From assembly GCF_000759475.1 (NCBI RefSeq), contig NZ_CP009454.1, positions 2,232,001-2,296,000 on the forward strand: a stretch of DNA of 64,000 nucleotides, in the 5' to 3' direction. A program made the translations under genes and the position numbers. This DNA is from Pantoea rwandensis. Its GTDB lineage: Bacteria; Pseudomonadota; Gammaproteobacteria; Enterobacterales; Enterobacteriaceae. The notes beneath the pieces were generated by a model that did not search any database, was not told the DNA's origin, and saw nothing but the letters and a program-made list of their open reading frames with translations. Below are positions 8,698 to 57,295 of this stretch, one piece after another; the stretch's first letter is position 1; every line of letters starts with the position of its first letter.

Positions 8698-9312
8698 ATG
8701 GAAGAGCTTACTCAACGAGTCGGGTTGTTGGAAAAGACCACCCATCAAATTCAACAGGATGTTGCCGTCCTGACCGCGCGATCGGAGAATTTTGCGACCA
8801 GAGCTGATATCTGCACGCTGCGTAGCGAACTGCTGGGTGAAATGGGACAGTCGGAAAAGCGTAGCGATGGCAAGTTTGACAAGATGGCGCTGAATTTCGA
8901 CGACAAGCTTGGAAAAATGGCGTTGCACTTTGACGATAAATTGGAAAAGTTAGAAGTGCGTATCGACGGCAAGCTGGACAAAATGGCGCTGCACTTTGAC
9001 GATAAACTGGAAAAGTTAGAAGTGCGTATCGACGACAAGCTGGACAAAATGGAACTGCGCATCGACGACAAGCTGGACAAAATGGAACTGCGCATCGATG
9101 ACAAGCTGGACAAAATGGAACAACGCATCGATGTGAAGTTTGAACGCATGGATGAAAAATTCGAGAAGAAATTTGTCAGGATCGATGAGAAGTTTGAAAA
9201 GCTGAATGTGAAATTTGAAAAGCTGAATGATCGACTAACCTGGTCAATTATGGTGCCCGCTATTCTGGCTGTGCTGGCCTGGTTTGTGAAAGACCTGTTG
9301 GTGAAAGTTTGA
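8698..9312 (+). CDS. Membrane-anchored coiled-coil protein with hendecad repeats
   Basis: This 204-residue protein is not recognised as a named family. Residues ~1-57 are helical and charged. Then come eight near-identical 11-residue units of the type DKLDKMELRID, followed by 7-residue units (EKFEKLN, VKFEKLN), and last a hydrophobic segment (residues ~182-195) that should anchor it in the membrane. Hendecads followed by heptads suggest a long parallel coiled coil with changing supercoil. There are two good starts in the same frame: ATG 8623 with GGAGG 6 bp upstream, and ATG 8698 with GGAGG 7 bp upstream. The second is chosen because the helical region begins there; the first would add 25 residues. 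Confidence 0.75.
   Translation: MEELTQRVGLLEKTTHQIQQDVAVLTARSENFATRADICTLRSELLGEMGQSEKRSDGKFDKMALNFDDKLGKMALHFDDKLEKLEVRIDGKLDKMALHFDDKLEKLEVRIDDKLDKMELRIDDKLDKMELRIDDKLDKMEQRIDVKFERMDEKFEKKFVRIDEKFEKLNVKFEKLNDRLTWSIMVPAILAVLAWFVKDLLVKV
8869..9132 (+). repeat. Eight tandem 33-bp coding units (11-residue hendecads)
   Basis: Eight consecutive 33-bp units encode 11-residue segments beginning G/DKxxKM or DKLEKL and ending in D. The last three differ from one another by only a few bases, so copy number could change by slippage or recombination. Confidence 0.85.
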
Positions 9313-24011: not shown

Positions 24012-24710
24012 ATGTCACTCACCCGCTGGCAACAACGCTACGAGAACTGGCTGCAGCAAAACTGGCTGCACGATGATAAAGCCCATGATATCGCGCACCT
24101 GCGTCGTGTCTGGATGAGCGCCACGCGCATCATGCAGCACAGTGCAGCCGATCCTATGGTGGTCCTCACCGCCTGTTACTTCCATGACGTGGTTAACCTT
24201 CCCAAAAACCATCCAGAGCGCCATCTGGCTTCCACCTATGCGGCTGAAGAGACACGCCGAATTTTGCAGCAGGACTTTCCGGACTTCCCACAGGAATTGC
24301 TCGAGGGTGTCGCCCATGCTGTCCAGGCGCACAGTTTCAGCGCACGCATCACGCCACTGACATTGGAAGCAAAAATTGTTCAGGATGCCGATCGCCTCGA
24401 GTCTTTAGGTGCTATCGGCCTCGCACGCGTTTTCTACACGGCCGGGGCGTTGGGCCGTCCGCTGTTTGACAGTGAAGATCCATTAGGAAAAGAACGTGAA
24501 TTAGACGATGTGAAATGGACGTTGGACCACTTCCAGAAGAAACTTTTACGCTTGCCCGAAACCATGCAAACCGAAGCGGGGCGCCTGCTGGCGGAGCATA
24601 ATGCGGATTTCCTGGTGCACTATATGGCTAAGCTGTGCGCGGAATTGCAGGGCAATCTCACCAGCATTGATGAGTCTGTATTAAGGGATTTCAGCCCTAT
24701 ACACTCTTAA
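24012..24710 (+). CDS. yedJ: HD-domain phosphohydrolase YedJ
   Basis: This 232-residue metal-dependent HD-superfamily hydrolase has the HD motif YFHDVVN near residue 57, an upstream His in KAHDIAHLRRV, and QDADRLESLGAIGLARVF near residue 125, as in E. coli YedJ (231 residues). The substrate is unknown, probably a nucleotide. In E. coli it lies next to dcm-vsr; here two genes, a ribbon-helix-helix protein and a chemoreceptor, separate it from dcm. ATG 24012 follows AAGGAG. Confidence 0.9.
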   Translation: MSLTRWQQRYENWLQQNWLHDDKAHDIAHLRRVWMSATRIMQHSAADPMVVLTACYFHDVVNLPKNHPERHLASTYAAEETRRILQQDFPDFPQELLEGVAHAVQAHSFSARITPLTLEAKIVQDADRLESLGAIGLARVFYTAGALGRPLFDSEDPLGKERELDDVKWTLDHFQKKLLRLPETMQTEAGRLLAEHNADFLVHYMAKLCAELQGNLTSIDESVLRDFSPIHS

Positions 24711-37728: not shown

Positions 37729-38364
37729 CTATCGCACGTTGACATAAATACCGGAGGTCACGTTATCGGTCAGTCGCACCACATGATAAATAACCTGTTT
37801 ATTATGTGTCTTAATTTTGCGTTTTATATTACCTTTGTGTGACGATACCGTTTTGGCTTTAATTTGCATCTTGTCTGAAATTTGAATGGTGTCATGACCT
37901 GACATCCACATTTTCAGCATATTTGACTCAGTCTGACTTAATGTCAGTGGGTGAATATCCAGGCCTGCTGAAATACGCGGGGTTGCGCTGAGTTTCTTTT
38001 GCAGGTAAGTGCCAAGCAGTGAGTCCAGAGTCGAAGTTTTCACCGATTTTGATGTAATAATCAAGTTCTTACGAACGTAGAGGTATTCCTCAAAATGGAT
38101 GTTCGAGATCGCCATAAAGATAAAAAATAGCGTATCTGGATGCTGCATAATAATGGCGCGAATACGATCGCTGGAATCAGCTTCATGAATAAAACATTCT
38201 TCATTAATAAAGACGACACCAGGTTTAAGCTGTTCACATCTTTGTTGCAATTGTTCAATATCAGAGACCGGAGTAATATTTTTCTTTTTAACTCCTTTGG
38301 CCGACATATAGTCTGATAATCCCAGGCGTGTGTAGTTACATGAATCCATAATAATCGTTGGCAT
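37729..38364 (-). CDS. rcsA: RcsA, capsule regulator (LuxR-type)
   Basis: RcsA pairs with RcsB to activate capsular polysaccharide (colanic acid, amylovoran, stewartan) genes and is normally degraded by Lon. The 211-residue product matches E. coli RcsA: STIIMD-like start (PTIIMDSC), [37 protein letters not shown], and a C-terminal helix-turn-helix with [20 protein letters not shown] (residues ~165-184) and [17 protein letters not shown] 38364 gives the conserved start. The gene adjoins fliR as in E. coli. Confidence 0.96.
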
Positions 38365-38993
38365 TATAGCGACCCTCACCAATTTGTTATCCGTTTAAAT
38401 CAACGATGAATACGCGTTTGCGGTACGAGAGAGATTTCCAAAGACACTTTTTTATTCTGCTCGGCAGATTGGCGAATGATATCCGTGCGCCATCATGACT
38501 CTATCCCTGAACCCTTCTGCGAAGTTTTTTGTGTTACTTCCACGTCACTCTTGTCCCCGCGATAGTGGGAATCGCCGGGAGTTTGCATTAAGTGTGTAAT
38601 TCGCTCTGTTTTTGAGAGCCCTGTCACTATCGCGCAAGTCACAGACAAATCTGATAGGACAATTCTTAAAAACATTTGAATCGCGAAAGTGTGACGTTTC
38701 AGCGAGTGTTGACAATGCCGGAAAAAAGGGATTTAGACAAGAAAAATCGCTGTAAAATTTTTTTTGTTTAAAAACAGCCCTTTGAGCATTTATTCAACCA
38801 ATTCACAAGGTTTATCGCCTTAGGAATCGTCTGACTAAAATACGCGAAGCGCCGTTTAATAAGAATAATTTTCACCTGAAATGCGCATTTATCAGAATAA
38901 CCTCAGTTGATTTCTGAGAAATATGGTTCGAAAAATGCGCAGATTGATTTTGAATACTTAACTATCGCATAAGAACTTCTACAGAATCGTTAA
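38365..38993. other. Long regulatory region between fliR and rcsA
   Basis: These 629 bp are AT-rich and hold no convincing gene. They contain the RcsAB box at 38655-38668 and must contain the rcsA promoter. In E. coli the corresponding region is silenced by H-NS and relieved by DsrA, whose gene is also in this window. A minus-strand ORF at 38493-38675 lacks a ribosome site and overlaps the box. Confidence 0.6.
38655..38668 (-). promoter_or_regulatory. RcsAB box
   Basis: On the minus strand TAAGAATTGTCCTA matches the RcsAB consensus TaAGAATATTCcTA at 12 of 14 positions, about 290 bp upstream of rcsA. This fits the autoactivation of rcsA known in E. coli, Klebsiella and Erwinia. Confidence 0.65.
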
Positions 38994-52847: not shown

Positions 52848-53094
52848 AGCGATTGTCCGGACAGCTTATTATTGTGGGGCCTACAGTAGCAGGCCTGGGG
52901 CGGGGGCTGTCCACCAATATAGACTCGAACCGTAAACTATTTTCCAATTAATGAGCTAACCGAAACGGCTAGCGAAAGGGCGTCAAATCGAATTGTTAAT
53001 TAATTGCACTGGGGGAGTATCTACGATAAATAATTTCGATTGAATGGATAAATAAAAAGCGTATCTTGGCCCTCGTTAACCAGAGGTGAGCATA

Positions 53095-53343
53095 ATGTTA
53101 CGCGACTATTTAAAGATTGATGATAGCGACCGTTTAGTTGAACAGAGCGTATTAAGACTCAACAACCGCGGTCAGGAAGATGTCACTGAATGGCATATTG
53201 TTAGCGTAGACGGCAAGCAAAAAGGCAGCGTGACGCTGTTCGACAAGCTCTGCAATCGCCGCTCATATTGCGTTAATTATCGCATTACGCAGAAGGATGT
53301 GCACGGGAGGGTTGTCGTCGATCATCTGACCGACGTTTTGTAA
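53095..53343 (+). CDS. Hypothetical protein, 82 residues
   Basis: The family is not recognised. It is a small soluble protein, probably beta-rich (DVTEWHIVSVDGKQKGSVTLFD, then RRSYCVNYRITQKDVHGRVV as a second sheet). ATG 53095 has the excellent site GAGGTGA just upstream, and a terminator follows at 53370. It is a self-contained unit between bluF and the repressor gene. Confidence 0.65.
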   Translation: MLRDYLKIDDSDRLVEQSVLRLNNRGQEDVTEWHIVSVDGKQKGSVTLFDKLCNRRSYCVNYRITQKDVHGRVVVDHLTDVL

Positions 53344-53369
53344 TAATTGCCGTAGTTTTGATTGTTTTG

Positions 53370-53392
53370 ACCCGCTCATAGGCGGGTTTTTT
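53370..53392. terminator. Terminator between convergent genes
   Basis: ACCCGC and GCGGGT around TCATAG are followed by TTTTT on the plus strand. Confidence 0.8.
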
Positions 53393-53400
53393 GCATTCTG

Positions 53401-54048
53401 TTACCTGACGCGATAGCGGCGCATTTCCATCATAGTTCCGATTAATTCAATCTTTTTCTCAGACGATGTCTGCACAGGAAAATCCTCATTCAACGGTCGT
53501 AACGAGAAAATTTGTTCGTCGTGCTGTTCAGTCATCAGGCGATAAATACGTACCAGAACCTCGCTATTGATGTGCGCCAACACCACATCACCCGGTTGCG
53601 GCGCAACCGCTGGGTCGAAAATCAGCGTATCGCCGGGTCGGTAGTCAGGTTGCATCGCGGCATCATCCAGAGTGATCGCCAACGCCGATTCACTCAGTTT
53701 GCTATCGCTATAGAGAAAGCGGGTTGCCTGCTGCTGAATCAATAAGCGCTGCTCCTGCATCCATGCTGCCGCTTGTGTCAGAGTGATCAACGGCAGGGCG
53801 CTGACGTCACTGACTTTAGACGGGGTGGTAAACACCTCGCCCTCACCATCAATAATCCATGCGGCAGTACATTGCAGCAGTTCTGCCAGCCTTAACAGAT
53901 TCTCGCCACGCGGAAGGGTCTCGTCCTTTTCCCATTGTGAAACAGCAACGTGTGACACGCCAATGCCGCTTGCCACCCCTTGCTGTGTCAGCTTCAGGTT
54001 TTTACGACGGCTGCGGATGCGCTCACCCACAGATTCTTTTTTCATCAT
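53401..54048 (-). CDS. CI-like repressor (XRE helix-turn-helix plus S24-like domain) without cleavage dyad
   Basis: This 215-residue protein is built like phage CI/C2 repressors: an XRE helix-turn-helix (residues ~8-60, GVASGIGVSHVAVSQWEKDE), a linker, and an S24/LexA-type C-terminal domain (~120-210, DYRPGDTLIFDP, QPGDVVLAHI). The catalytic Ser of the DSM motif is replaced (DAAMQP, A131) and the catalytic Lys is Arg (VRIYR, R167). No Ala-Gly cleavage pair is seen in the linker. It should bind operators but not self-cleave with RecA. It faces the three-gene operon at 54193 across paired palindromes. Phage origin is likely. Confidence 0.88.
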   Translation of the reverse strand: MMKKESVGERIRSRRKNLKLTQQGVASGIGVSHVAVSQWEKDETLPRGENLLRLAELLQCTAAWIIDGEGEVFTTPSKVSDVSALPLITLTQAAAWMQEQRLLIQQQATRFLYSDSKLSESALAITLDDAAMQPDYRPGDTLIFDPAVAPQPGDVVLAHINSEVLVRIYRLMTEQHDEQIFSLRPLNEDFPVQTSSEKKIELIGTMMEMRRYRVR

Positions 54049-54072
54049 CTTGACAACTCCTCTGTGTTTTAC

Positions 54073-54114
54073 TTAAGTATACTTAAATTCATTAATTAAA
54101 GTAAACTTAAATTC
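54073..54114. promoter_or_regulatory. Paired operators between the repressor gene and the three-gene operon
   Basis: TTAAGTATACTTAA (54073-54086) is a perfect palindrome, and TTAAAGTAAACTTAA (54096-54110) is a close copy; their right halves repeat at a 24-bp interval (GTATACTTAAATTC and GTAAACTTAAATTC). This is the usual layout of a repressor's operators in a divergent promoter. Binding by the adjacent CI-like protein is inferred. Confidence 0.65.
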
Positions 54115-54118
54115 TGAT

Positions 54119-54176
54119 GTTGGCCGCATAGCTGGCAAGGGCGGCCAACATGTTCCTCAGGCGGATCCCTTGCCAG
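54119..54176 (+). promoter_or_regulatory. Leader with two competing inverted repeats
   Basis: GTTGGCCGC (54119-54127) pairs with GCGGCCAAC (54141-54149); CTGGCAAGGG (54132-54141) pairs with CCCTTGCCAG (54167-54176). The left arm of the second lies in the loop of the first, so they exclude each other or form a pseudoknot. The second ends 6 bp before the ribosome site of the first gene in the operon. Confidence 0.45.
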
Positions 54177-54192
54177 TTAAGAGAGGTGAGGC

Positions 54193-54582
54193 ATGGAAAG
54201 TAGTTTGGTGACCAGCGTCGGTGCGCTGCTTCTCGGTGGCGGTGCGGCAGCTGTGTTCTGGAAACCCTTAATGGCAGGCATCGCGGCCATCGTCACCAGC
54301 AATCGCGCCGGCGGCGAGATCATCACCAGCTACAAAGAGCAGGTGATGCTTCTCAAAGAGAGCCATGCGCTGATGCGCCAGGAGAATGATGACCTGCGTA
54401 TTCGCCACGACAAAAACCTGCGGCGCATCTCTTCGCTGGAGACCGATCTACGGCTGATAAAGAACGCGTTGGGCATTCTGTTAGCCACCACGGAATCTGA
54501 TCATAGCGATAAATTCCGCAGTCAGATCAATCAACTGATCACCACCTTAGAGGAGAGTCGCGATGGTGCAGATAAACAGTGA
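54193..54582 (+). CDS. Membrane-anchored coiled-coil protein, 129 residues
   Basis: The family is not recognised. A glycine/alanine-rich N-terminal membrane segment (residues ~5-35) leads to a charged helical region with coiled-coil pattern (YKEQVMLLKESHALMRQEN, SLETDLRLIKNALGIL) and an acidic tail. GAGGTGAGG precedes ATG 54193. It is the first gene of an operon divergent from the CI-like repressor and its end overlaps the next gene by 20 bp. Size and topology recall phage accessory membrane proteins, but no specific match can be claimed. Confidence 0.7.
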   Translation: MESSLVTSVGALLLGGGAAAVFWKPLMAGIAAIVTSNRAGGEIITSYKEQVMLLKESHALMRQENDDLRIRHDKNLRRISSLETDLRLIKNALGILLATTESDHSDKFRSQINQLITTLEESRDGADKQ

Positions 54583-54892
54583 GTTTTCAGTGCGAGGCCA
54601 CCGGCGTCAGCTACTGCTAGGCGGCCTGCTGCTGATGCTGTCGCTGCTGTGTGTGGCGATGACGATTATGTTCGTGTTCGTGAATAACAGCGCCAATCGC
54701 CGGGTGGAAGACATTCGCCAGCAGTACCGTGCGATTTCGGACCGGAGGGAAGCGCGGGTGGCCGAACTGACCAGCCAGTTAGTGACGTTGCAGAAAAAAC
54801 TCGATGGCTTGCCGAATCGCACCGCGAACAAAACGGCGGACAAAGTGAAGCAGGTGGTGGGGGAGGACGCGCCGCCCGAATCGACGCATTAA
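54563..54892 (+). CDS. Membrane-anchored coiled-coil protein, 109 residues
   Basis: The family is not recognised. After a short basic N-terminus there is one strong membrane helix (residues ~17-40, LLLGGLLLMLSLLCVAMTIM) and then a charged coiled coil (RRVEDIRQQY, ARVAELTSQLVTLQKKLDGL) and an acidic end. The topology resembles phage Rz-type spanins and other single-pass coiled-coil proteins, without a diagnostic motif. It overlaps the previous gene by 20 bp and ends 7 bp before the next start, so the three are translated together. Confidence 0.7.
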   Translation: MVQINSEFSVRGHRRQLLLGGLLLMLSLLCVAMTIMFVFVNNSANRRVEDIRQQYRAISDRREARVAELTSQLVTLQKKLDGLPNRTANKTADKVKQVVGEDAPPESTH

Positions 54893-54899
54893 GGAGGCC

Positions 54900-55658
54900 A
54901 TGATGAGTATTACCGAGCGGATTGCAGTTGGCTTCGGCCGATTGCGGTCTTTATTAAGCAAGAAGGAGAAAATTATGAGCGACCAAACTGTAATCGAAAA
55001 TAGTGCAACAACTGCAACACCGGATGCCAGCACGCTGTCACCGTTAGAGAGTTTTGCTAATGAGGTGGCGGGGAAGGCGGAGAGCAGTGCATCAGCGGCA
55101 GATGGCTCAACTTCAGCCGTGAGTAACGCGCCAGGGCAGGACGCCATAGCACCAGTGTTAAGCAGCGTGCCTGCAACGGATGCTTCAACGACAAACGTGG
55201 ATAGTGAACCAGCACAGGACGTCTCAACAGCAGCCGTGAGTAGCGTGCCAGCGTCGGATGCTTCTACGCCCGCGGTGAATAGTTTTCCAGCAGCTGACGC
55301 CACACTTCCCGCTGAAGACAGTGCAGCTGTCCCAGACACCTCAACGCCAGCAGTGAATGCTGGCAGCGAGGCACAACCTGCAGCGGCCGTAGCGGATGCA
55401 ACGGATCTCACTCAGCAGTTGGCCACGCCGGATCCGCTAGCAAACGGTTCTGCCAGCGCCGGGCCTTCATCGGCTTCTACCGTCGGCAATCTGGCTGAGC
55501 AGCCTGTAGCAGGAATCATTACGGATGCGGTCAGTCAGGATATCAGCGCTAGCGTGAAGGACTTCACTCAGGCATTCAACTTTGTCGAAAGTGGGGTTGA
55601 GAAGTTAGGTACGGCCGCGAAGGATGAGCTGATTGCCCTCGCGCGCAAGTATCTTTAA
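54900..55658 (+). CDS. Ala/Ser/Thr-rich low-complexity protein, up to 252 residues
   Basis: The family is not recognised. Residues ~50-190 are disordered with imperfect repeats of the type SSVPATDAST, SSVPASDAST, VNSFPAADAT. A conserved-looking helical C-terminus (DISASVKDFTQAFNFVESGVEK) ends in ELIALARKYL. No signal peptide is seen. There are two in-frame starts: ATG 54900 with AAGGAGG, which adds the amphipathic SITERIAVGFGRLRSLL, and ATG 54975 with AAGGAG. Both could be used. It is the last gene of the three-gene operon; a terminator follows 7 bp after the stop. Confidence 0.7.
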   Translation: MMSITERIAVGFGRLRSLLSKKEKIMSDQTVIENSATTATPDASTLSPLESFANEVAGKAESSASAADGSTSAVSNAPGQDAIAPVLSSVPATDASTTNVDSEPAQDVSTAAVSSVPASDASTPAVNSFPAADATLPAEDSAAVPDTSTPAVNAGSEAQPAAAVADATDLTQQLATPDPLANGSASAGPSSASTVGNLAEQPVAGIITDAVSQDISASVKDFTQAFNFVESGVEKLGTAAKDELIALARKYL

Positions 55659-55664
55659 TTCTGT

Positions 55665-55686
55665 GGCGGCCTTCGGGTCGCCTTTT
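55665..55686 (+). terminator. Terminator of the three-gene operon
   Basis: GGCGGCC and GGTCGCC pair around a TTCG tetraloop and are followed by TTTT. Confidence 0.75.
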
Positions 55687-55785
55687 CATCTTCCGATTAT
55701 TCTTAATGCGGTCTCGCTATTTTCTACTAACTTTAATCATTCAGACGTTATTTAAACGGGTTTAATTAGCGAAAAGGAAGATAGC

Positions 55786-56052
55786 ATGAGTGATACAGAG
55801 GCAATCAAAACCAAAACTGACTACCTGCGTGATGTCACCTCCCAGTTAAAAGAGATGCGTCACTATGCGCAGACCAATACTGAGACGCTATCCAGCCACT
55901 GGTTGGCATTTGATGCAGGCGAGTACAAAGATAAAGAGTACGCAGGACGTTTTGACACGCTGCTCAACAAGCAGGGACAGCTGTTAGATGATATTGAGCT
56001 GGCGATTCAGGATTTAGAGATCGCCATCAATCACAGCGAGCAAGAAGGCTAA
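55786..56052 (+). CDS. Hypothetical protein, 88 residues
   Basis: The family is not recognised. It is a soluble, acidic, all-helical protein (TDYLRDVTSQLKEMRHYAQ, LLDDIELAIQDLEIAINHS), possibly a helical bundle. AAAGGAAG precedes ATG 55786, and it has its own upstream AT-rich region (55687-55785). It lies between the three-gene operon and the convergent DinI-like gene. Confidence 0.62.
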   Translation: MSDTEAIKTKTDYLRDVTSQLKEMRHYAQTNTETLSSHWLAFDAGEYKDKEYAGRFDTLLNKQGQLLDDIELAIQDLEIAINHSEQEG

Positions 56053-56071
56053 GTTCCCCCACGCTGGTGGC

Positions 56072-56311
56072 TTAATCGGCCACCAGCCACATCTCGGCTT
56101 CATCAAACATCTCTTCAACAATACGCGCTACGGTTGCTTTATCGTTCTTACTTAAATCGGTATCGATAGCGTTGCGTTCCATCGGCTTAACGCGCACCTC
56201 AATCTCTGGGAAGACGCGTTGCACGCGTTTCTCAAGCTCCTGCAAAATCATCTCACGCGCGCCCGGCAGACCGGCAACGTTGCGTTTATCGTAAATCAAC
56301 TCCACAAACAT
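56072..56311 (-). CDS. DinI-family protein
   Basis: This 79-residue protein fits the DinI family (E. coli DinI, 81 residues), which binds and modulates RecA filaments; DinI-like domains also occur in phage 186 Tum-type antirepressors. It shows the family pattern: an N-terminal strand (MFVELIYDKRN), a basic helix (ELEKRVQRVFPEIEVRV), and the acidic C-terminal helix with IVEEMFDEAEMWLV. ATG 56311 is chosen because an ATG at 56344 would leave only 4 bp to the LexA box. The LexA box 38 bp upstream makes it SOS-inducible. Confidence 0.82.
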   Translation of the reverse strand: MFVELIYDKRNVAGLPGAREMILQELEKRVQRVFPEIEVRVKPMERNAIDTDLSKNDKATVARIVEEMFDEAEMWLVAD

Positions 56312-56348
56312 CAGGGCATTCCATTCATCAAGCGGGTGCGCCATATTA

Positions 56349-56364
56349 CTGTAAATAAAAACAG
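56349..56364. promoter_or_regulatory. LexA (SOS) box
   Basis: CTGTAAATAAAAACAG has the invariant CTGT and ACAG ends and an AT-rich centre, close to CTGTATATATATACAG. It is 38 bp upstream of the DinI-like start and 117 bp from the divergent gene at 56481. Confidence 0.85.
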
Positions 56365-56480
56365 TGGCAAGTGATGAACCGTTGCGCCGCGAAAATTTTT
56401 TGTTTCTGGCAAGCGCAGCACCACATTTGCGTTGATACTCAACAGCGTTACACAGGGAAATGGATTCATGAGGGGGTAAT

Positions 56481-56774
56481 ATGCGGCAACTGGTGATCGA
56501 TATTCTGCTGAAAATGGCAAAGATGGATACGGATGCAAAAGAACTGGTGGCACAGGTGGAGGCACAATCACTGCTGCTGGCGGCATTATTGATTCAGGCT
56601 AAAGAGGATAATTCGCTGACCATCACGGAAACCGTGCAGGACGCCATCGTTACCGCATCGCGTTCTGGCGAGTTGTTTCTACAGTCAGACGTGGATCTGC
56701 TATTGACGCACATTAACCGCCTGCTAGCCGTTGCGCGTTATGTCGAAGTGAAGGGAGTCGAGCGAGAAGGATAG
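56481..56774 (+). CDS. Hypothetical protein, 97 residues
   Basis: The family is not recognised. It is a soluble, mostly helical protein (LVIDILLKMAKMDTDAKELV, VEAQSLLLAALLIQAKED). GGGGGTAA precedes ATG 56481. It is divergent from the DinI-like gene and might share its SOS control. Strong hairpins follow. Confidence 0.6.
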   Translation: MRQLVIDILLKMAKMDTDAKELVAQVEAQSLLLAALLIQAKEDNSLTITETVQDAIVTASRSGELFLQSDVDLLLTHINRLLAVARYVEVKGVEREG

Positions 56775-56823
56775 GGTAAAAAATACTACCTCTGGAGGGG
56801 AAATCCAGCAACTCCTCCAGAGG
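56775..56823 (-). terminator. Terminator on the minus strand
   Basis: CCTCTGGAGG (56789-56798) and CCTCCAGAGG (56814-56823) form a 10-bp stem, followed on the minus strand by TAGTATTTTTTA. It probably ends the minus-strand gene at 56972. Confidence 0.65.
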
Positions 56824-56868
56824 CGGCGCAATAGCACCTTCGTTCAAGGACAATCTACGACCGAAGCC

Positions 56869-56899
56869 GTCAGATAGAAGTTATACAACTTCTTCTGAC
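56869..56899 (+). terminator. Long hairpin after the 97-residue gene
   Basis: GTCAGA and AGAAGTT pair with AACTTCT and TCTGAC around ATAC, a 13-bp stem with one bulged T. A T-run (CTTTTTCC) follows about 10 bp later. Confidence 0.5.
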
Positions 56900-56971
56900 T
56901 TGTACAACTTTTTCCTTGCCGATTTGTGTGGTTGGAGGTGTGCTTGAGATATATTTTTAGGGCCGCTGCGC

Positions 56972-57295
56972 TTAAAGTTCGTTCTTGATGCAAAACTCTT
57001 CCCACGTCATGCCGAGCGCTTCCGCATGTGATTTCAGGTAAGTTTCAATGGCTTCAGCCGCAACCGCTTTATCAGGCTCTGCCAGTTGAATGGAAAACAG
57101 CATGCCATCCAGCTTTTTCTGGCGTAAGAATGCCGCATAAATGCGCTCAGCGTGCCACTCGCGCAGTTGGCGCAGTGACAGGTTGGCCGCGCGCGCGTCG
57201 CTCTCGGTCAGTTCATCCAGCGCGGCTTGAAAATCGGCGTGTGCGGCAAAAAACATCGTGCGTGCCTGGGCGTAATACTCTTCTGGGGTTTTCAT
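56972..57295 (-). CDS. Small conserved hypothetical protein, 107 residues
   Basis: The protein is soluble and helical, with KTPEEYYAQARTMFF at the start and a C-terminal EALGMTWEEFCIKNEL. That ending and the overall layout recall the small proteobacterial DUF6388 proteins, but this is a tentative match. ATG 57295 has AGGAA upstream; the frame upstream to 57502 crosses the yedD promoter. It is divergent from yedD. Confidence 0.6.
   Translation of the reverse strand: MKTPEEYYAQARTMFFAAHADFQAALDELTESDARAANLSLRQLREWHAERIYAAFLRQKKLDGMLFSIQLAEPDKAVAAEAIETYLKSHAEALGMTWEEFCIKNEL

Follow-up and report, generated by a model that had tools for sequence, protein, structure and literature searches.

What is a phage-type repressor gene, set back to back with three tightly packed genes of membrane and coiled-coil type, doing among the flagellar genes of Pantoea rwandensis? 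The locus lies in the 64,000-nucleotide window analysed here (NZ_CP009454.1, positions 2,232,001–2,296,000 of the forward strand; coordinates below are those of the window), and the genes, termed rep, m1, m2 and m3, occupy a cassette of 2.3 kb (53395–55690). A sequence-only reading had proposed that DNA damage raises a nearby DinI-like protein, or the product of an adjacent 97-residue gene, which would then release the repressor and switch on the operon. Comparison with related genomes and prophages points to another answer. Judging from its homologues the cassette is very probably of phage origin, and on balance we favour the view that it descends from a temperate phage of P22 type and has been domesticated, acting as a switch outside SOS control in which immunity is coupled to genes from the flanks of a lysis region.

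The repressor gene rep (53401–54048, minus strand) encodes a P22 c2-type protein with HTH_3 and Peptidase_S24 domains (Pfam). Among solved structures it comes closest to the DNA-binding domain of P22 c2 (PDB, E 2e-17) and, weakly, to lambda CI and UmuD'. The earlier description of a CI-like repressor with a substituted S24 dyad holds, as Ala131 and Arg167 align with the Ser and Lys of relatives in which the dyad is intact. Across 48 orthologues (columns compiled without L080 and the L079 repressor) the catalytic Lys is lost from every protein (Arg in 46, Leu in one, Ala in one), the cleavage-site Gly from 47 and the catalytic Ser from 38, always in favour of Ala, ten proteins having kept the Ser. 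The helix-turn-helix homology and the operator type are therefore those of P22 c2, while the Ala-Gly cleavage site with its Ser/Lys dyad is absent. Self-cleavage of such a protein is unlikely, and without the residues required it should stay in place after DNA damage. Around the recognition helix, residues 31–35, 37–41, 43–44 and 46–48 are invariant in all 48 orthologues.

Paired palindromes between rep and m1, already recognized as putative operators, are supported by comparison. The first, ACTTAAGTATACTTAAAT (54071–54088), matches the pattern WNTTAAGNNNNCTTAANW without mismatch; the second, ATTAAAGTAAACTTAAAT (54095–54112), 24 bp from the first, departs from it at one position. The sites are of the same type as those of P22, of the phages PA-1 and vB_EhrS_59, and of the locus L289. 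Within the window the pattern is not above chance (five matches at two or fewer mismatches against 3.98 expected), and since neither this pattern nor the LexA box discussed below is more frequent than in shuffled sequence, the weight of both rests on conservation across loci. The core TTAAGTATACTTAA is found exactly in 42 of 49 loci. Two scored sites lie 21–24 bp apart in 44 of the 49, and one locus scores a single site; a third site scored in L056 is probably fortuitous. Three-operator arrays at phage spacing (24–25 bp) occur in L051, L053 and L278, which form the deepest branches of a tree of neighbouring proteins (support 88). The exact sequence TTAAGNNNNCTTAA is present at three places in the P. 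rwandensis genome, two of them outside the locus (G000:C1:4230717 and 4303750), and these outlying copies are possible additional targets of the repressor.

The operon (54193–55658, plus strand) is as compact as first described, m1 and m2 overlapping by 20 nt and m3 starting 7 nt after the end of m2. In m1 (54193–54582) an N-terminal hydrophobic segment precedes what is probably a coiled-coil domain, and m2 (54563–54892) combines one hydrophobic segment (residues 22–40) with a probably helical region. Both are small proteins with a single hydrophobic segment in a simple hydropathy window; the charges flanking the best window of m1, and that window only, considered for the N-out, C-in topology of a releasin, are −1 before and +1 after. 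The m3 product (54900–55658) consists of a short N-terminus, a strongly variable Ala/Pro/Ser-rich linker and a conserved C-terminal end of ∼40 residues, and belongs to PHROG 22600, a family of unknown function. An internal in-frame ATG at 54975 lies behind AAGGAG, and phage relatives carry a similar motif before an inner Met; a dual start in m3 is thus possible. The sequence-only reading called these genes unknown; their origin can be traced to a phage lysis region.

The genes m1 and m2 stand at the head of that region in prophages. In 36 of 37 prophage loci carrying m1 an endolysin, holin-like or Rz homologue lies within ∼0.6 kb after m2; in the remaining locus the contig ends inside m2. One holin query, a small membrane protein from L079, falls into a PHROGs ‘membrane protein’ family rather than a holin family, and the count of 36 never rests on it alone. 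Antitermination protein Q is encoded upstream in L078 (Pfam) and, by homology, in several other m1 prophages. The m3 gene marks the other flank. Its conserved end was found in 63 loci on viral contigs, eight of which are cassettes, and 18 of the 55 non-cassette loci carry an Rz homologue within 0.5 kb upstream, a count that covers the one Rz type queried and no other spanin type. These prophage loci (37 for m1, 55 for m3) include near-copies and are not independent. The complete order is displayed by L136, in which m1 and m2 are followed by endolysin, HNH, holin, inner and outer spanin, m3 and terminase (endolysin, holin, both spanins and terminase named by PHROGs). In Pantoea phage PA-1, m3 directly follows an annotated Rz-like spanin; the PA-1 repressor gene, annotated in two pieces, encodes a protein 40% identical to rep.

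An uncultivated viral genome (UViG 2788500126_000005) unites all of these components. Its repressor is 43% identical to rep and retains QAG, Ser and Lys. The next 9.3 kb hold further genes that look replication- and nin-like (by eye rather than by family test), and are followed by m1, m2, a 180-residue open reading frame (ORF) in the place of the endolysin, a holin, Rz and m3. Two deletions in a phage of this kind could have produced the cassette. Loss of the early genes would have joined rep and its operators to the flanks of the lysis core, with m1-m2 from before it and m3 from after it, and excision of the core itself would have removed endolysin, holin and spanins. Searches of the INPHARED phage collection gave no match to m1 or m2 at E 0.01, and a prophage m2 protein gave weak matches only (best E 0.03).

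Within the genus the cassette occupies one site. Full-length rep (at least 43% identity) is present in 48 of 61 genomes, and m1 in exactly these 48; the two genes are divergent throughout and lie in every case in a syntenic locus beside flagellar genes. In the wider family m1 was found in three of 149 genomes: that of P. rwandensis itself, L278 and G187, the last in a prophage. It was found in none of 24 genomes from other families, and a search of plasmids and Escherichia coli genomes with the cassette DNA returned no match. The 37 named loci are mostly from Pantoea, with others from Mixta, Erwinia sp. S63 and [Erwinia] mediterraneensis; two records named Enterobacter contain near-identical loci and are probably misnamed. 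The outgroup L278 belongs to another genus of the family, probably Duffyella from the similarity of one of its proteins to a named one, and its cassette, too, has flagellar genes for neighbours. In a tree of m1, a branch with a Shimodaira–Hasegawa-like approximate likelihood ratio (SH-aLRT) support of 94 divides the 49 chromosomal proteins from 18 encoded in prophages. When presence is mapped on the neighbour-protein tree (60 loci), four changes are needed, three of them forced by branches that the tool stars. The gap at L199 (G013) contains 48 nt that match a stretch close to the 3′ end of rep at 79% identity, with position and strand unchanged (E 3e-7 in a small search); this rep fossil indicates that the cassette was lost in that lineage. 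In L200 (G030), a small genome of 2.9 Mb, the end of m3 (8767–8883) is the only remnant.

Retention has been accompanied by selection. Median pairwise ratios of non-synonymous to synonymous change (dN/dS) are 0.048 for m1, 0.165 for rep and 0.208 for m2, with 0.041 and 0.048 for the neighbouring reference genes dinI and cc88. Within rep the DNA-binding part (0.141) is more constrained than the C-terminal part (0.218). These values are simple pairwise counts on related sequences rather than a phylogenetic test, and for the cassette cover rep, m1 and m2; short or broken copies were removed (rows used: rep 48 of 49, m1 48 of 50, m2 46 of 50, dinI 46 of 48), as were L078, L079 and L080. On this comparative evidence the cassette is old, has been inherited vertically at one site and is under purifying selection. 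Together with the homologues in intact-looking prophages, these are the features looked for in a domesticated prophage.

The m1 leader (54117–54176, plus strand) contains two interleaved inverted repeats, with arms at 54117–54126/54142–54151 and 54132–54141/54167–54176, that are shared by 21 genomes (20 distinct rows aligned, L095 being identical to L094). Both sides of the first repeat have changed in five of its ten pairs; the second is nearly invariant and displays no covariation. The covariation score is 0.211, against 0.162 in shuffled alignments and 0.05–0.11 in slid versions, while two of five measures, the numbers of double-change pairs and of pair types, are not clearly above shuffles (39 and 191 of 500). 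A strict knot of 6 + 6 Watson–Crick pairs can be drawn in six of the 21 leaders of this clade compared with 45 of 2,100 shuffles (∼2%), and in one of 27 leaders of the other clade. An Rfam search of 53000–57000 gave no match up to E 1. The pseudoknot is a candidate only.

Several parts of the proposed damage response are real. The DinI-like gene (56072–56344, minus strand) belongs to PF06183 and lies behind an exact CTGTN8ACAG LexA box, CTGTAAATAAAAACAG (56349–56364); its frame is open only from about Met12 in G031, G032 and G040, so translation probably starts at Met12 (56311), which would put the box at a normal distance. The proposal was that this gene or the 97-residue gene supplies an antirepressor, a route with a precedent in the non-cleavable repressors of Gifsy phages, which are reported to be controlled by LexA-regulated antirepressors (PMC3121763). 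The type of repressor and the presence of a LexA-boxed gene 2 kb away agree with that precedent, and dinI is near the cassette in all 48 loci, which is the pattern that a neighbour established there before the cassette would give. The connection fails on distribution. The dinI gene is present in 59 of 61 genus genomes, including 11 of the 13 without a cassette, ten of which also carry cc88. The exact box, searched in 160 nt per locus, occurs in 51 of 60 loci overall. Of the 11 loci without a cassette nine have it, as do 42 of the 48 with one; in the other six of these 48, and in L278, it was not found. Cassette and box are separable in both directions and a link to SOS is therefore not supported, this independence being what the sequence-only reading had itself said would tell against its model. 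The 97-residue gene (56481–56774, plus strand) is genuine. It belongs, however, to the IraP family of sigma-S anti-adaptors (97 bits against an NCBIfam NF007598 cut-off of 78), and turned up in 33 of the 48 loci that have the cassette. By sequence, rep lacks self-cleavage residues, as a Gifsy-type switch requires, while a co-inherited LexA-controlled antirepressor was found in neither dinI nor the 97-residue gene, unlinked genes lying outside the search. We regard damage-induced release through these products as highly improbable. LexA-like matches in the window are at chance level (20 at one or no mismatch against 21.1 expected); a further exact CTGTN8ACAG lies at 24319–24334.

How, then, might the cassette work? 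From the arrangement, rep is predicted to bind its operators and hold m1-m2-m3 down. Release could come about if operators on phage DNA that is entering or replicating titrate the repressor, through a phage antirepressor, or by slow switching of the DicA/DicC kind. Once made, m1 and m2 would act at the inner membrane, either by influencing how related phages lyse the cell or in some other envelope role for which they have been kept; standing first in the lysis region, they may be lysis accessory or cargo genes. Retention at one spot in most genomes suggests that the bacteria use the cassette, perhaps against related viruses. A phage-directed role as a whole is a proposal that we judge less likely than not, and its fullest version, an anti-phage device, is doubtful. 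In such a device an SOS-proof repressor would keep the cell permanently immune to related phages whose operators are of P22 type, and its titration would let m1-m2, possibly with m3, poison or mistime lysis by the invader.

The domesticated-switch reading must be set against observations that weigh on the other side. The functions of m1, m2 and m3 are not known in any phage, and repression of the operon is a prediction. The genus has lost the cassette on about three or four occasions, and the SH-aLRT of 94 separating chromosomal from prophage m1 falls short of the value starred by the tool. No match to m3 was obtained in 22 of 49 cassette loci, making this gene dispensable. An in-frame stop interrupts m2 in two loci, L056 and L075, as decay in single lineages; in L075 the m1 start is altered as well. 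In three genus genomes (G034, G038 and G054) a prophage supplies m1-m2 a second time, so the cassette coexists with such prophages and does not exclude them. Finally, none of the 14 next-best repressor matches in genus genomes (down to E 1.3e-13), most of which retain Gly, Ser and Lys, has the helix region of rep, and resident prophages of the same immunity were thus not found among these matches.

These points bear unequally on the alternatives. The losses and the broken m2 genes are what a decaying relic without function would leave; the low dN/dS of rep, m1 and m2, far from 1, and the conservation of gene order and operator type across 48 genomes make this very improbable. It could instead be that immunity alone was selected, a non-inducible rep shutting down phages with P22-type operators while m1-m2-m3 travel as passengers. 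The almost invariant recognition-helix region fits this idea, as do the same-type operators of PA-1, a phage of Pantoea ananatis, and of the Erwinia phage vB_EhrS_59, and loss of the cleavage residues would make the immunity SOS-proof. We nevertheless consider it unlikely, given that m1 is more constrained than rep, which is unexpected of a passenger, and that the 14 further repressors offer no partner with the same helix region. The strong selection on m1 also fits a reading in which m1-m2, perhaps with m3, serve the host envelope under a captured repressor in a capacity unrelated to phages (controlled leakage, vesicle release or envelope stress, for instance). Long inheritance at one site and the candidate leader structure conserved in one clade are consistent with such use, but no particular host process is indicated and the lytic enzymes are gone; this reading, too, appears unlikely. 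The reading of the cassette as a domesticated phage switch is, on balance, the one retained here.

The limits of the cassette are defined by five empty sites (L198, L199, L201, L203 and L204), at which the sequence in common with the cassette locus ends at about 53394 and restarts at 55691. The right-hand shared stretch opens with TTCCGATTATTC. The left boundary is the terminator-like hairpin of orf85 (53369–53388, plus strand), in the orf85/rep interval just outside the cassette and retained at empty sites; a second terminator-like hairpin, after m3 (55665–55682, plus strand), was not seen there by inspection. Both neighbours, orf85 on the left (53086–53343, plus strand) and cc88 on the right (55786–56052, plus strand; 56 of 61 genus genomes), persist at empty sites. 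Six cassette-free genomes have a near-empty site with the order BLUF-EAL, orf85, ∼170–300 nt, cc88, dinI, iraP. The absence of structural phage genes, which had suggested a domesticated switch, is borne out beside the cassette, where none was matched among the ORFs around it (two scans of ten proteins each rather than the whole window); what stands of that suggestion is the domesticated phage piece, without its SOS link. Upstream of the cassette, some species (L092, L058 and L139) have prophage-like genes, judged by eye to be of tail, UmuC-like and integrase-like type, and this interval may be an integration hotspot. Elsewhere in the window, a GC-poor stretch beside a flagellar export gene contains a LuxR-type regulator ORF (37729–38382), which may be RcsA-like.

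The locus thus offers a stepwise record of domestication, from a living prophage relative through deep three-operator forms and two-operator forms to a fossil after loss. It also places uncharacterized lysis-flank genes of prophages under long-term host selection in a simple 2.3-kb setting in which m1, m2 and m3 can be studied. Should the repressor or the operon act on phages, the cassette would amount to a defence assembled from the immunity and lysis regions of the attacker itself.

Open-licence literature provided no paper joining ‘domesticated prophage’ with Pantoea, and in the portions consulted of papers on Pantoea, prophages and lysis cassettes, including PMC12724215, none was recognized as describing this locus. 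Among characterized proteins, m1 resembles the Mu gp25 releasin (DUF2730; PMC9239132) in its short N-terminus, hydrophobic segment, charged helical domain and position near an endolysin, and UniRef names two m1 relatives DUF2730. Membership is rejected, as PF10805 matched none of 19 m1 proteins and hhalign, run against a single sequence, returned a probability of 0.6%; a genome-wide PF10805 search was uninformative, with no match in 61 genomes or in the controls. Unlike Mu, the m1 prophages examined here have a holin or another small membrane protein. With P22 c2 and lambda CI, rep shares its helix-turn-helix, operator type and S24-like C-terminal domain; it differs in having lost the cleavage site and catalytic dyad, in being chromosomal, and in facing the lysis-flank gene m1 rather than early phage genes. 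Like the Gifsy repressors it is of phage type and should not be cleaved on DNA damage, whereas no linked antirepressor was recognized at the cassette and its LexA-boxed neighbour is of the DinI family and not co-inherited. A further comparison is with DicA-dicBF of the cryptic E. coli prophage Qin, where a phage-type repressor is likewise retained over an operon of small products. The DNA-binding domains are related, rep scoring 88.9 bits on the NCBIfam DicA model, below its cut-off of 101. DicA is relieved by the antirepressor Rem and also switches spontaneously (PMC10448788); a comparable route for the cassette would be a phage antirepressor or operator titration. In contrast to dicBF, m1-m3 have no DicB family match, and the cassette stands alone, combines a degenerate S24 domain with lysis-flank genes, and has been kept across a genus and, as L278 shows, in at least one further genus within the family.

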